Shown: one piece after another, positions 1,161 to 52,834 of the stretch | Layout: every line of letters begins with the position of its first letter | Numbering within the stretch: the stretch's first letter is position 1 | Assembly (NCBI RefSeq): GCF_017916505.1 | Contig: NZ_JAFMSZ010000002.1 | Location: forward strand, 62,001-126,000 | Length of the DNA: 64,000 nt | Direction: 5' to 3' | From: Naasia sp. SYSU D00057 | GTDB taxonomy: Bacteria; Actinomycetota; Actinomycetes; Actinomycetales; Microbacteriaceae | Notes under the pieces: model-generated | What the model saw: only the letters and a program-made list of their open reading frames with translations | Told to the model about the DNA's origin: nothing | Databases searched by the model: none | Program-made: the position numbers and the translations under genes

Positions 1161-1342
1161 CCGGCAGCATCGCCGCGGGCTCAGCAGCATCGCCACGGGC
1201 TCAGCAGGAACGTCGCGGGCTCAGCAGGCACGTCAAGGGCTCAGCAGGCAGAAGGGGCCGGCCGATGCCTGCCGTGGCCTCGCCGCGCCTGCCGTGGCCT
1301 CGCCGCGCCTGCTGAGGCCTCGCCGCGCCTGCTGAACCACGA
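1161..1342. repeat. Intergenic 20-bp-period array A (TCAGCAGGCA / TGCCTGCTGA core)
   Basis: Left half: five units starting at 1161, 1181, 1201, 1221 and 1241, each 20 bp, most beginning TCAGCAG and ending GGGC. Right half: inverted units starting at 1267, 1287, 1307 and 1327, again exactly 20 bp apart, of the form GCCTGCYGNGGCCTCGCCGC. No coding sequence is credible here. The array fills the gap between the fruR promoter and the terminator of the oligopeptide transporter operon. Related arrays occur at 24658, 30355 and 38246. Confidence 0.8.
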
Positions 1343-24657: not shown

Positions 24658-24847
24658 TTCAGCAGGCAGAACCGGTCCTCAGCAGGCACGGCGGCGGCGA
24701 TTGTTCCTGCTGAACACCGTCGGCGCCTGCTGAACCAGCTCGGCGCTTATCAGCAGCACACCCGGGACCGCACTCGGCAGGACTTTCTGCATTCGGCAGG
24801 AGATTCCGGACCGGAAAGTCCTGCCGAATGCAGAAGATCCTGCTGAG
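24658..24847. repeat. Intergenic array B (TCAGCAGGCA core) with strong hairpin
   Basis: Units TTCAGCAGGCA at 24658 and CTCAGCAGGCA at 24678 (20 bp apart) face inverted units TTCCTGCTGA at 24704 and CGCCTGCTGA at 24725. A second set follows: TCAGCAGCAC near 24749, TCGGCAGGAC near 24774 and TCGGCAGGAG near 24793, then inverted GTCCTGCCGA near 24818 and ATCCTGCTGA near 24838. Within it a perfect 16-bp stem (24786-24801 with 24819-24834) could terminate both convergent genes (exonuclease and mmsA). Confidence 0.75.
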
Positions 24848-30354: not shown

Positions 30355-30428
30355 CTCGGCAGGACTTCCCGCCGTCAGCAGGACGGATGACCCCCAGAAT
30401 TCCTGCTGAGTGCAGGAAGTCCTGCTGG
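30355..30428. repeat. Intergenic array C (TCAGCAGGAC core)
   Basis: Units TCGGCAGGAC (30356) and TCAGCAGGAC (30375) are 19 bp apart and face inverted units TTCCTGCTGA (30400) and GTCCTGCTGG (30419). It lies between the convergent ends of fba and the DUF6264-like gene. It is the same family as arrays A, B and D. Confidence 0.7.
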
Positions 30429-36958: not shown

Positions 36959-37504
36959 TCAGCCGGCCCCGGTGTGCATCGGCTCGTCCGCCGGAGTGCC
37001 GTGCTCGACGGCGACGGACATCGGCACCTCGCGGGCGATGGCGTCGCGCACGGTGGAGTGCATGATCGCCCAGTCGATGACCTCGCGGGTCGCGGCATCG
37101 TCCCGGTTCGAGGATGCGTAGCGCACGATGATCGTCATCTCGAGCGGTCCGGCGGGGATCTCCGGGCTCATGCCCAGAGCTCCCCGATCGTCGGACTCGG
37201 CCTCGACGAGCACCTCGAGCCCCTCGAGCGACAGCTCCATCTCAGCGGACCGCATCGCGATGAACATGGCGACGCTCGAGGCGAGCGCCGCGCGCAGGTA
37301 CCACCCGGGCGACGGCACCGAGGCACTGTCGCCGATGCCCGCCACCATGTCCTTCGGGATGCCGCCCGGCCCGGACACGCGGACGAGGAGGTCGCGCTCG
37401 ATCGTCGCCCGAGCGGGAGTGTCGTGATAGCGGGCGAGCGCCGGGAGGTTGTGAAGGTACTCCCTGGCGCGCTCGACCCCCGCCTTGATGTCCTGCTGGT
37501 CCAC
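36959..37504 (-). CDS. OsmC-fold protein lacking both catalytic cysteines
   Basis: 181 residues with the OsmC/Ohr layout: an N-terminal strand pair, PSPGWYLRAALASSVAMFIAMRS (central helix), MTIIVRYASSNRDD and a C-terminal helix ending REVPMSVAVEHG. In peroxidase members the central helix has ASC and the end has CPV. Here both cysteines are replaced (ASS, VPM) and the protein contains no Cys at all. It cannot be a thiol peroxidase of the usual kind. The GTG start at 37504 has AAGGAG 5 bases upstream and is preferred over the ATG at 37528. Confidence 0.78.
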   Translation of the reverse strand: MDQQDIKAGVERAREYLHNLPALARYHDTPARATIERDLLVRVSGPGGIPKDMVAGIGDSASVPSPGWYLRAALASSVAMFIAMRSAEMELSLEGLEVLVEAESDDRGALGMSPEIPAGPLEMTIIVRYASSNRDDAATREVIDWAIMHSTVRDAIAREVPMSVAVEHGTPADEPMHTGAG

Positions 37505-37571
37505 GGCTGCTCCTTCGCTGCCCCGCAACCAGGGTGATCCTGCGGGGTCGGCACCGCAAGCCCCTCGACGG

Positions 37572-38141
37572 TCATGCCGACGCGAGCAGGGCGACCCAGA
37601 ATCCGGCGAGCAGGAACGGGCCGAACGGCAGGCGGGCGCGGCGTCCGGAGCGGGCCAGCACGAGCAGGGCGCCGACCCCGCCCGCGAGGAACGCGACGAC
37701 GAGGAAGAGGATCACCGAGGCGGCACCGAGGAGGCCCAGCACCACTCCGAGGGCGCCGGCCAGCTTGACGTCCCCGAGCCCCATCCCGCCCGCGACGGCG
37801 AGCACGAGGAACAGCGCGAGCACCCCCGCGCCGGCGAGGAGGGCCGGCAGCATCGGCTGTCCTGCGGCTCCGGCGAGCGCGACACCCACGAGGCCCGCAG
37901 CGCAAGCGGGCAGGGTGAGCGCGTCCGGCAGGCGATGCTCCGCGACGTCGACGCGGACGAGCTCCGGGGTGACCGCGGCCAGGCAGGCCACGCCGACGAG
38001 GGCTGGAACCGGCCCGTGCACGGCGGCGGCGAGCGCGACCAGGGCTGCAGCGGCGGGCGCCTGCCAGACCAGCATCGCCGGCCGCCAGGGCGCTCGGGTG
38101 CGCAGTGCGACCGCCCCTGTCCGCAGTCCCGTCATCGACAT
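37572..38141 (-). CDS. Prepilin peptidase A24 family (TadV/CpaA-like)
   Basis: 189 residues with about six membrane segments. The two aspartates of the aspartyl protease are in VRVDVAEHRLPDALTLP and GGMGLGDVKLAGALG (the GxGD motif). The N-terminal methylase domain of PilD is absent, as in TadV/CpaA enzymes that process Flp-type pilins. No tad/flp genes are in the window. A leaderless-type promoter abuts the ATG, next to repeat array D. Confidence 0.87.
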   Translation of the reverse strand: MSMTGLRTGAVALRTRAPWRPAMLVWQAPAAAALVALAAAVHGPVPALVGVACLAAVTPELVRVDVAEHRLPDALTLPACAAGLVGVALAGAAGQPMLPALLAGAGVLALFLVLAVAGGMGLGDVKLAGALGVVLGLLGAASVILFLVVAFLAGGVGALLVLARSGRRARLPFGPFLLAGFWVALLASA

Positions 38142-38147
38142 GCGGGA

Positions 38148-38153
38148 ACCCTA
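38148..38153 (-). promoter_or_regulatory. -10 box of a leaderless-type promoter (prepilin peptidase)
   Basis: On the minus strand TAGGGT ends 6 bases before the ATG at 38141. Confidence 0.55.
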
Positions 38154-38245
38154 GGGATGGGGAGGCCATCCGACTCCGTCGCTGTCCACAGCGGTGGGGC
38201 CCCGGTCCCCTTGCCCGGCCTGCCGCCGCAGGCGCTCCGTCTGCG

Positions 38246-38446
38246 TTCAGCAGGCACTCCTGGGCTTCAGCAGGCAGAACAAGACCGGTCATGCCTGCTG
38301 AAGGGCCTCGGTGCCTGCTGAAGGAGATTCGCGTACCTGCTGAAGGGCCTCGGTCGCTGCTGAAGAGGACCCCGCACCTCCTGACGGATCGCAGCTCCTG
38401 CTGGCGCAATCGCCCGCCTGCCGAGGACGCCGACGTTCCTGCCGAA
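38246..38446. repeat. Intergenic array D (longest; ten units, 20-22 bp period)
   Basis: Two direct units TTCAGCAGGCA start at 38246 and 38266. Eight inverted units follow, with cores starting at 38292, 38312, 38334, 38354, 38375, 38395, 38415 and 38436, drifting from TGCCTGCTGA to NNCCTGCCGA. Spacings are 20, 22, 20, 21, 20, 20 and 21. The sequence between cores is not conserved. The array fills the gap between phoH2 and the prepilin peptidase promoter and has no coding potential. Confidence 0.8.
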
Positions 38447-38497
38447 GAGGCATGGCGCCGGGCGGACGACCGCCCGGCGCCATACTCCGGTCAGCGC

Positions 38498-39853
38498 TCA
38501 GGCGAGCTCGTTGGACTCCAGCATCTCGGTGACGAGGGCGGCGATGGCGCTGCGCTCGGATCGGGTGAGCGTCATGTGCCCGAAGAGCGGGTGGCCCTTG
38601 AGGGTCTCGATGACACTCGCGACCCCGTCGTGGCGGCCGACGCGCAGGTTGTCGCGCTGGGCGACGTCGTGGGTGAGCACGACACGCGAGTTCTGTCCGA
38701 CGCGGCTGAGCACCGTGAGCAGGACGTTCCGCTCGAGGGACTGCGCCTCGTCGACGATCACGAAAGCGTCGTGCAGCGAGCGTCCGCGGATGTGGGTGAG
38801 CGGCAGCACCTCGAGGATGCCGCGCTCCATCACCTCGTCGAGCACGTTCTGCGAGACGAGCGCGCCGAGGGTGTCGAAGACCGCCTGACCCCAGGGCGAC
38901 ATCTTCTCGCCCTGGTCGCCGGGCAGGAAGCCGAGCTCCTGGCCGCCGACCGCGTACAGCGGCCGGAACACCATGATCTTCTTGTGCTGCTGCTTCTCGA
39001 GCACGGCCTCGAGCCCGGCGCACAGCGCGAGCGCCGACTTGCCGGTGCCGGCGCGGCCGCCGAGGGAGACGATGCCGATCGACGGGTCGAGGAGCATGTC
39101 GATCGCGAGCCGCTGCTCCGCCGAGCGGCCGTGCAGGCCGAACACCTCGCGGTCGCCGCGGACGAGCCGGAACTCCCCCTTGCCCGTGACCCGGCCGAGG
39201 GCGGATCCGCGCTCGGACGAGAGGACGAGCCCGGTGTTGATCGGCAGGTCGCGCACGAGGTCGCTGCGCATCCGCTCGCCGTCGTAGAGGTCGGCCATCT
39301 CGCTGCCGCTCAGCGCGACCTCCGCGAGGCCCGTGTAGCTCGGGTCGTGGGCCAGCTCGGCGCGGTACTCCTCCGCCGCGATGCCGATCGACGACGCCTT
39401 CACGCGCATCGGCAGGTCCTTCGAGACGACGACGACGTCGAGCCCGTCGTTCTTGAGGTTCAACGCGACCGCGAGGATGCGCGAGTCGTTGTCGCCGAGC
39501 TGCAGGCCGGACGGGAGGACCGCCAGGTTCGAGTGGTTGAGCTCCACGCGGAGGCTGCCGCCCTCGTCGCCGATCGGGATGGGGAAGTCGAGGCGCTCGT
39601 GCTGCACGCGCAGGTCGTCGAGGTTGCGCAGCGCCTGGCGGGCGAAGTAGCCGATCTCGGGGTCGTTCCGCTTCGCCTCCAGCTCGGTGACGACGATCAC
39701 CGGGAGGACGACGGCGTGCTCCGCGAAGCGGAACACGGCCTTGGGATCCGAGAGCAGAACCGACGTGTCCAGCACGTAGGTGCGTTCGGCCTGGGCCGCC
39801 CGCTCCTCGCTCGACGCGTTCACCGCGGACTGGGGACGGGCGGCTGTGGCCAC
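38498..39853 (-). CDS. phoH2: PhoH2-type protein: PIN nuclease domain fused to PhoH ATPase
   Basis: 451 residues. The N-terminal PIN domain (about 20-165) has [22 protein letters not shown] and [12 protein letters not shown], supplying the acidic metal ligands. The C-terminal PhoH domain has Walker [21 protein letters not shown] and Walker [11 protein letters not shown]. The GTG at 39853 is chosen because GGTGGGAG lies 5 bases upstream; a GTG at 39865 is possible. In mycobacteria PhoH2 is an RNA helicase/RNase toxin with a small antitoxin encoded just upstream. No such ORF is seen here; the upstream gap holds only hairpins. Confidence 0.9.
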
Positions 39854-39867
39854 AGTAACTCCCACCT

Positions 39868-52719: not shown

Positions 52720-52834
52720 CCACCGAGTGCGCCTCGCAGCACCGAGTGCGCCCGTTGCACCGGGTGCACTCGGTGCTTCAGGGAGCACTCGGTGGATGCA
52801 GAAAGCGACCGTCCTGCGGACGATCGCTTTCTGC
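52720..52834. repeat. Intergenic array E (CACCGAGTGC core) plus hairpin
   Basis: CACCGAGTGC occurs at 52721 and 52740 (19 bp apart) and is followed by the inverse GCACTCGGTG at 52766 and 52785 (19 bp apart). The layout matches arrays A-D but the core is unrelated. A further near-perfect hairpin (52798-52834, GCAGAAAGCGA pairing with TCGCTTTCTGC) abuts the 3' end of the tRNA gene and may terminate it. Confidence 0.7.

Follow-up and report, generated by a model that had tools for sequence, protein, structure and literature searches.

Dispersed four-box modules in Naasia sp. SYSU D00057 as candidate cognate sites of a predicted winged-helix/DUF559 nuclease

The intergenic ten-box array described here in Naasia sp. 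SYSU D00057 is, with a probability that we put at roughly 0.6, one of the dispersed cognate DNA sites of a predicted winged-helix/DUF559 nuclease. Judged from the sequences, it is likely that the nuclease recognizes the boxes. That it also drives or drove their spread, as in REP/RAYT pairs, is suggested by analogy and stands at about even odds. Our results comprise the architecture of the modules, their dispersal, matching modules on both sides of nuclease genes, the co-occurrence of both within the genus and the conservation of catalytic-type residues.

The window, that is, the whole stretch of 64,000 nucleotides analyzed, contains ten 10-bp boxes within 38246-38446 that differ from TGCCTGCTGA or its complement at no more than 3 positions (Table 1). 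They start at 38247 and 38267 on the reverse strand and at 38292, 38312, 38334, 38354, 38375, 38395, 38415 and 38436 on the forward strand, giving steps of 20, 25, 20, 22, 20, 21, 20, 20 and 21 bp. Eight of the ten have at most 2 mismatches, whereas 1000 dinucleotide shuffles of the stretch average 0.57 such boxes and never exceed 3. The exact 8-mer CCTGCTGA, counted on both strands, occurs 27 times in the window versus 0-3 times in 20 shuffles. A preliminary description had reported an ordered multi-box array, which is confirmed by all ten boxes, and the genome-wide check of core frequency and period also came out for the pattern. Its strict period of 20-22 bp holds for most steps, but the central step is 25 bp and, over the arrays as a whole, later steps vary between 19 and 24 bp. 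The right-hand neighbour is presumably phoH, and the inverted repeat next to it is probably the phoH terminator. An Rfam search of 37500-39000 gave nothing above a gathering score. The gap 3' of phoH was read by eye across the genus, whose genomes are called G000 (our own) to G008: it holds a type A array in Naasia sp. SYSU D00057, a CAACAGGAC-type module in G005 and a CGCCGAG-type module in G007; no such module was seen in G001, G004 and G006, and in G002, G003 and G008 phoH has a different neighbour.

Table 1. Features of the window, with positions counted from its first nucleotide
Feature	Position	Strand	Basis
Second type A array	1181..1332	.	
Type A module on which the genes for an RNase_T exonuclease and an aldehyde dehydrogenase converge	24659..24733	.	
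Type B module, CGGCAGGACTTTCTGCA box, beside the preceding type A module	24773..24847	.	
Type B module 3' of class II aldolase gene	30357..30427	.	
Type IV leader peptidase (prepilin peptidase) gene, left neighbour of the reported array	37572..38141	-	PF01478
Reported array, ten 10-bp boxes, orientation <<>>>>>>>>	38247..38445	.	
Four-box type A module, 20/25/20 bp	38247..38321	.	Profile R1 matches both strands
One-sided extension: six further boxes at 20-22 bp, 1-3 mismatches each	38334..38445	+	
14-bp inverted repeat just 3' of phoH, separate from the array	38452..38483	.	Sequence and self-match
phoH-like gene, right neighbour of the reported array	38498..39865	-	ORF; orthologues in 9/9 genus genomes
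Type C module, CACCGAGTGC box	52720..52795	.	

The basic unit is a 75-bp module, represented by the first four boxes of the array, two left and two right, with the plan TCAGCAGGCA-10-TCAGCAGGCA-15-TGCCTGCTGA-10-TGCCTGCTGA. BLAST found 109 matches to the array in our genome, and 64 of 68 modules in the window and in stretches fetched around these matches show exactly the 20/25/20 spacing. Among boxes above the score limit, 134 of 139 steps from box 1 to box 2 measure 20 bp and later steps are 19-24 bp, with mean mismatches of 0.72 and 0.83 at box ranks 1 and 2 and of 1.06-1.41 at ranks 3-7. One stretch, L011, has seven modules in tandem. The DNA between the cores, earlier called unconserved, is mostly so, but a weak consensus adjoins the boxes across the 64 modules. 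Left and right spacers in our genome are mostly non-complementary beyond the boxes, and no clear covariation between them was found in its modules, which argues, as far as sequence can tell, for binding of double-stranded DNA by a protein. The initial proposal of a protein-binding array with its boxes on one helical face, not a hairpin, thereby gains support. An RNA hairpin was rejected on the same spacer evidence and the Rfam result. A DNA uptake sequence, with thousands of copies also outside clusters, was considered too; we take the box to resemble the neisserial DUS. It was rejected because boxes are rare outside arrays: those with at most 1 mismatch reach 0-0.20 per kb in ten control stretches, against 0.83-4.39 per kb in 29 of 30 array stretches and 0.33 per kb in the remaining one (L010).

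Modules recur at dozens of intergenic places in our genome. Gene calls and box sorting were made by hand or with our own gene caller, and some of the assemblies are incomplete. Of 59 array clusters, 57 are intergenic: 32 lie between convergent, 24 between same-direction and one between divergent genes, against 11, 27 and 17 among 55 background gaps of at least 150 bp, several clusters sharing one gap so that not all are independent. A module finder with 8-mer boxes, built before the link to nucleases was noticed, searched for any 8-mer in the two-direct/two-inverted layout. It returned 18 modules in 264 kb of our genome (the window and ten stretches chosen blind), 5 in 850 kb from loci of 80 named relatives, two of these being tandem copies in Pseudoclavibacter, and 1 in codon-shuffled sequence of our own and the relatives' stretches. 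The 18 were sorted by hand into 3 type A, 5 type B, 7 type C, 2 type D and 1 type E; box families differing in sequence follow one module plan. Type C alone has 36 strict matches in our genome and its reversed-pattern control 0. The search for partner genes yielded none for modules of types D and E. As a side observation, Pseudoclavibacter sp. 125703-2019 carries two near-identical tandem four-box modules with a GGCCAGCC box (L088, 8349-8554), about 2 kb from phoH.

Profile R1, built from the sequences of the 64 modules and counted on both strands, has 156 matches in our genome, 67 in G008, 49 in G004, 39 in G006, 37 in G003, 31 in G007 and 5 in G005, and none in G001 or G002. With stricter filters it matched 12 of 299 family genomes: four belong to the genus and five to one other genus (g17), and the remaining three gave a single weak match each. 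Read by eye, the module core of the relatives is mostly CAGCAGG or CAACAGG with genome-specific flanks, and beyond the outer boxes there is often one more inverted repeat. Few positions are common to species: in a tblastx comparison of flanks with limits on identity and length, 4 of 38 module loci in our genome share a flanking gene with any of 35 loci fetched from four relatives, a sample covering only some of the modules those genomes contain. The most shared site seen is that of the type A module at 24659, whose neighbour gene is accompanied by a module in G003, G004 and G006 as well. Carriage by viruses was rejected. The inner-pair pattern occurs in at least 120 stretches of viral contigs, but the 80 matches listed have one site each, as expected by chance, and none of 49 pattern matches in a viral-contig search with alignment A2 was confirmed as a relative. 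Distant homologues were found in one phage and four plasmid records, all below 60% identity.

Three genes of our genome are flanked by modules; both modules of one gene share a box, and the boxes differ between genes. The gene P0001 (G000:C11:21787-22563, 259 aa), at an array-rich place, lies between two sets of type A modules, its paralogue (56%; L048:11628-12464) between type B modules and an AbiEi-like gene (L043:7998-8927, 309 aa) between type C modules. In the flank tests, the finder used 7-mers with a total of at most 2 mismatches. Among homologue loci taken as the best per genome (n=30), the 8 with the highest scores have modules on both sides; this holds for none of the other 22, of which 3 (L410, L417 and L427) are cut by a contig end. 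These 30, the paralogue and 20 hand-picked loci mostly from module-bearing genomes, one pick repeating a gene already included, gave 50 distinct homologues. Fourteen are flanked on both sides, by the same box in 13 and a near-match in 1, and 36 are not, which is no rate since the set was partly hand-picked. By comparison, pseudo-gene controls were flanked in 0 of 1042 cases in other genomes and in 1 of 260 in ten stretches of our own. A phylum-wide sample had 2 of 30 loci flanked, P0001 itself and L499. Among the PF04480 loci of the genus (n=29, the broken L389 omitted), 4 are flanked on both sides: three genes of the P0001 clade already counted and L373, with another box. Similarity between proteins correlates with similarity between their boxes, picked by eye, across 14 genes (r 0.65, reached in 0 of 5000 permutations); within the nine core genes the correlation is not significant (384 of 5000 permutations). 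Dispersed and gene-flanking boxes sometimes disagree inside a genome, as in G334.

Several other loci were noted beside these. L499 (G611, same class, another order) has GATCCGC modules on both sides, at 19/21-23/19 bp. Two genes of other DUF559 clades, L443 (G004) and L373 (G003), have arrays with steps of about 20 bp on both sides, with boxes GGATCCGTGCAGG and GATCAGGA, read partly by eye. L407 (G216), from another genus, carries a long tandem run of modules with a period of about 92 bp upstream of the gene, at about 697-1227, and further modules downstream, at about 2388-2836; their box is CGGCACG/CGAGCCG. G024 (genus g17) is without type-A-like modules, yet its nuclease genes L408 and L434 are flanked by CGTGTAGG and CGTTCAGGC boxes.

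Within the genus the P0001 clade is present in G000, G003, G004, G006, G007 and, broken, in G008; it is absent from G001 and G002, where no paralogue exceeds 40%. G005 is undecided, being 68% complete and also without a match to sdhB. All six genomes with the clade have modules and neither of the two without it does. PF04480 was rejected as a marker of the partner: it has 2 matches in our genome and 9 in the module-free G001 and misses the G006 and L048 genes. Because of this poor fit to the modules the P0001 clade was used instead. In most cases the gene occupies one locus, with SdhA, SdhB and BrkB as neighbours, and therefore is not a frequently jumping gene. The nuclease there is enclosed by modules in G000 (paralogue), G003, G004 and G008 and has them on a single side in G006; in G007 the finder sees none, and degenerate boxes were read by eye. 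In G001 and G002 sdhB is present, and the 1.5 kb examined contains no nuclease and no module. Box sequences vary between genomes even at this single locus. The nuclease copy of G008 (L447, G008:C8:86500-91500, at 2136-2931) is broken by a stop and a frame change with both flanking modules intact, and the 67 profile matches of that genome persist despite it. P0001 itself adjoins engA, away from the sdhB locus, and groups in the tree with the sdhB-locus genes of other genomes (90/90), not with that of its own, which suggests that it moved or was replaced. A clade with 100/99 support comprises nine genes, eight of them flanked, the ninth being the degenerate case of G007.

The best surviving alternative, which we consider unlikely, is a chromosome-structuring or regulatory array, bound cooperatively by a nucleoid, gyrase or regulator protein between convergent genes and kept for that purpose. 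The strict 20/25/20 geometry fits it, as does the excess of convergent over divergent gaps, some of them shared between clusters, although avoidance of promoters is equally expected of repeats that merely insert. It is opposed by the patchiness of the modules within one genus, the few positions common to species, the existence of several box families with one architecture and the link of modules to nuclease genes. The nucleoid or regulatory array at fixed places of the preliminary description is thus not supported in that form, and the comparison of orthologous positions went mostly against a fixed regulatory site.

The dispersed cognate site of a nuclease, the reading we prefer, draws further on the proteins. 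P0001 matches DUF559 (PF04480) with 28.3 bits against a cut-off of 20.6, and DUF559 and MTES_1575 are its only Pfam matches. The PF04480 cut-off is reached by five of ten proteins scanned (L009, L407, L408, L402 and L443), and some relatives of P0001 score below it. Residues E166, D193, E203, D205, H210, D219 and R220 are invariant in 14 proteins; the catalytic role of all but R220 is assumed from the superfamily. Profile matches in the PDB were to the endonuclease-like 3hrl (1.2e-5) and, weakly (0.033), to the mobile-intron protein 3r3p, which we take to be I-Bth0305I of the EDxHD homing class. The AbiEi winged helix (PF13338) is above its cut-off in L440 only, and P0001 has no Pfam AbiEi match. 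The type C protein L043 has a PADLOC AbiEi match (1.6e-10), and its C-terminal part has no Pfam match. By eye, that part resembles a PD-(D/E)XK domain.

Three further explanations are less probable still. That the modules are MITEs derived from an ordinary transposon, or genuine REP elements mobilized by a RAYT, is very unlikely. They are indeed dispersed, intergenic, palindromic and tandemly repeated, but Y1_Tnp (PF01797), the only transposase searched for, was found in 0 of 9 genus genomes against 5 of 14 in a control set. In addition, the type C pair encloses an AbiEi-like gene and was found without homologue bias, the gene enclosed in the 14 both-side cases being a P0001 homologue by construction of the test. 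Bidirectional transcription terminators sharing a sequence by chance would account for the position of modules at 3' ends and for several modules of G008 and G003 that by eye are nearly self-complementary throughout. We give them slightly less weight again, as spacers in our genome are mostly unpaired and do not covary, the one-sided extensions have no pairing partner, the reported array lies beyond the separate 14-bp hairpin and Rfam gave nothing above a gathering score in the region searched. The least probable explanation is that the modules serve an AbiEi-like repressor or antitoxin as operators or decoys, the nuclease domain being incidental and the spread due to chance duplication. It agrees with one module preceding the nuclease start codon and with AbiEi and Rv2827c binding two and four inverted repeats in their own promoters (PMC7319586), but is at odds with the invariant catalytic-type residues of the 14 proteins, with a module also at the 3' end of the gene and with the lack of an AbiEii-type nucleotidyltransferase toxin among the few neighbours examined at two loci of our genome (EngA, glyoxalase, SdhA, SdhB and BrkB).

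For a nuclease with dispersed cognate sites, the following mechanism may be proposed. A putative N-terminal AbiEi-like winged helix of each monomer would bind one box of about 10 bp. Each arm would carry two monomers, separated by two helical turns; the two pairs would face each other across the 25-bp centre and bring their C-terminal Vsr-type PD-(D/E)XK domains together at the dyad. Nicking or cutting at modules, followed by repair, may copy modules to new places and may also lengthen arrays box by box. With one module 5' of the nuclease start and another at or near the stop codon, the gene probably represses itself. AbiEi of S. agalactiae binds cooperatively to two inverted repeats and bends its own promoter, and Rv2827c binds four (PMC7319586), so a four-box module would be a natural site for four such winged helices.

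The closest parallel is with REP/BIME/REPIN elements and RAYT (TnpA-REP). Both systems have short, many-copy extragenic palindromes with clustered inverted units, and in both an enzyme gene lies between copies of its own repeat. For RAYTs a position between two inverted REPs is described as invariable (PMC2817692), and here such a placement applies to the 14 of 50 homologues and the type C gene. However, the protein here is a predicted wHTH/PD-(D/E)XK protein of Vsr type, instead of an HUH Y1 transposase, and its repeat unit, with four boxes in about 70-75 bp, has a consensus over 64 modules of our genome that lacks the GTAG/CGTC foot. With the AbiEi autoregulators, some members (L440 and the type C protein) have a winged-helix match in common, and in both systems inverted repeats precede the gene. 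The proteins described here differ in ending with a nuclease-type domain, in lacking a toxin gene among those neighbours that were examined and in having sites dispersed genome-wide and also after the gene. The Vsr-like nucleases 3r3p, VsrA and MTES_1575 share the DUF559/Vsr-type domain with conserved acidic and His residues. Caulobacter VsrA carries a DUF559 domain (PMC12907096) and MTES_1575 is a Vsr-type domain (PMC3710099); dispersed multi-box repeats are not mentioned in the passages covered. No report pairing DUF559 or AbiEi-type proteins with dispersed repeats was found in the literature covered, partly in abridged form, most subscription papers and all of bioRxiv lying outside its scope.

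It is only tentatively, at a little below even chances, that we propose a new class of genome-resident system, selfish or domesticated, in which a wHTH/Vsr-type nuclease is paired with its own four-box palindromes, which would multiply by cut-and-repair and not by transposition. Box and protein would diversify together, also at one stable locus, giving every lineage a 'dialect' of its own, and a single genome would contain three such pairs. If true, the repeat-plus-enzyme strategy of REP/RAYT evolved twice, the second time around an unrelated enzyme. A role could then be proposed for actinobacterial proteins now labelled 'DUF559' or 'AbiEi family antitoxin', and dispersed palindromes that look like regulatory arrays would be explained. 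The many natural pairs of nuclease and box would make the specificity of a protein for DNA, and its change over time, directly testable.
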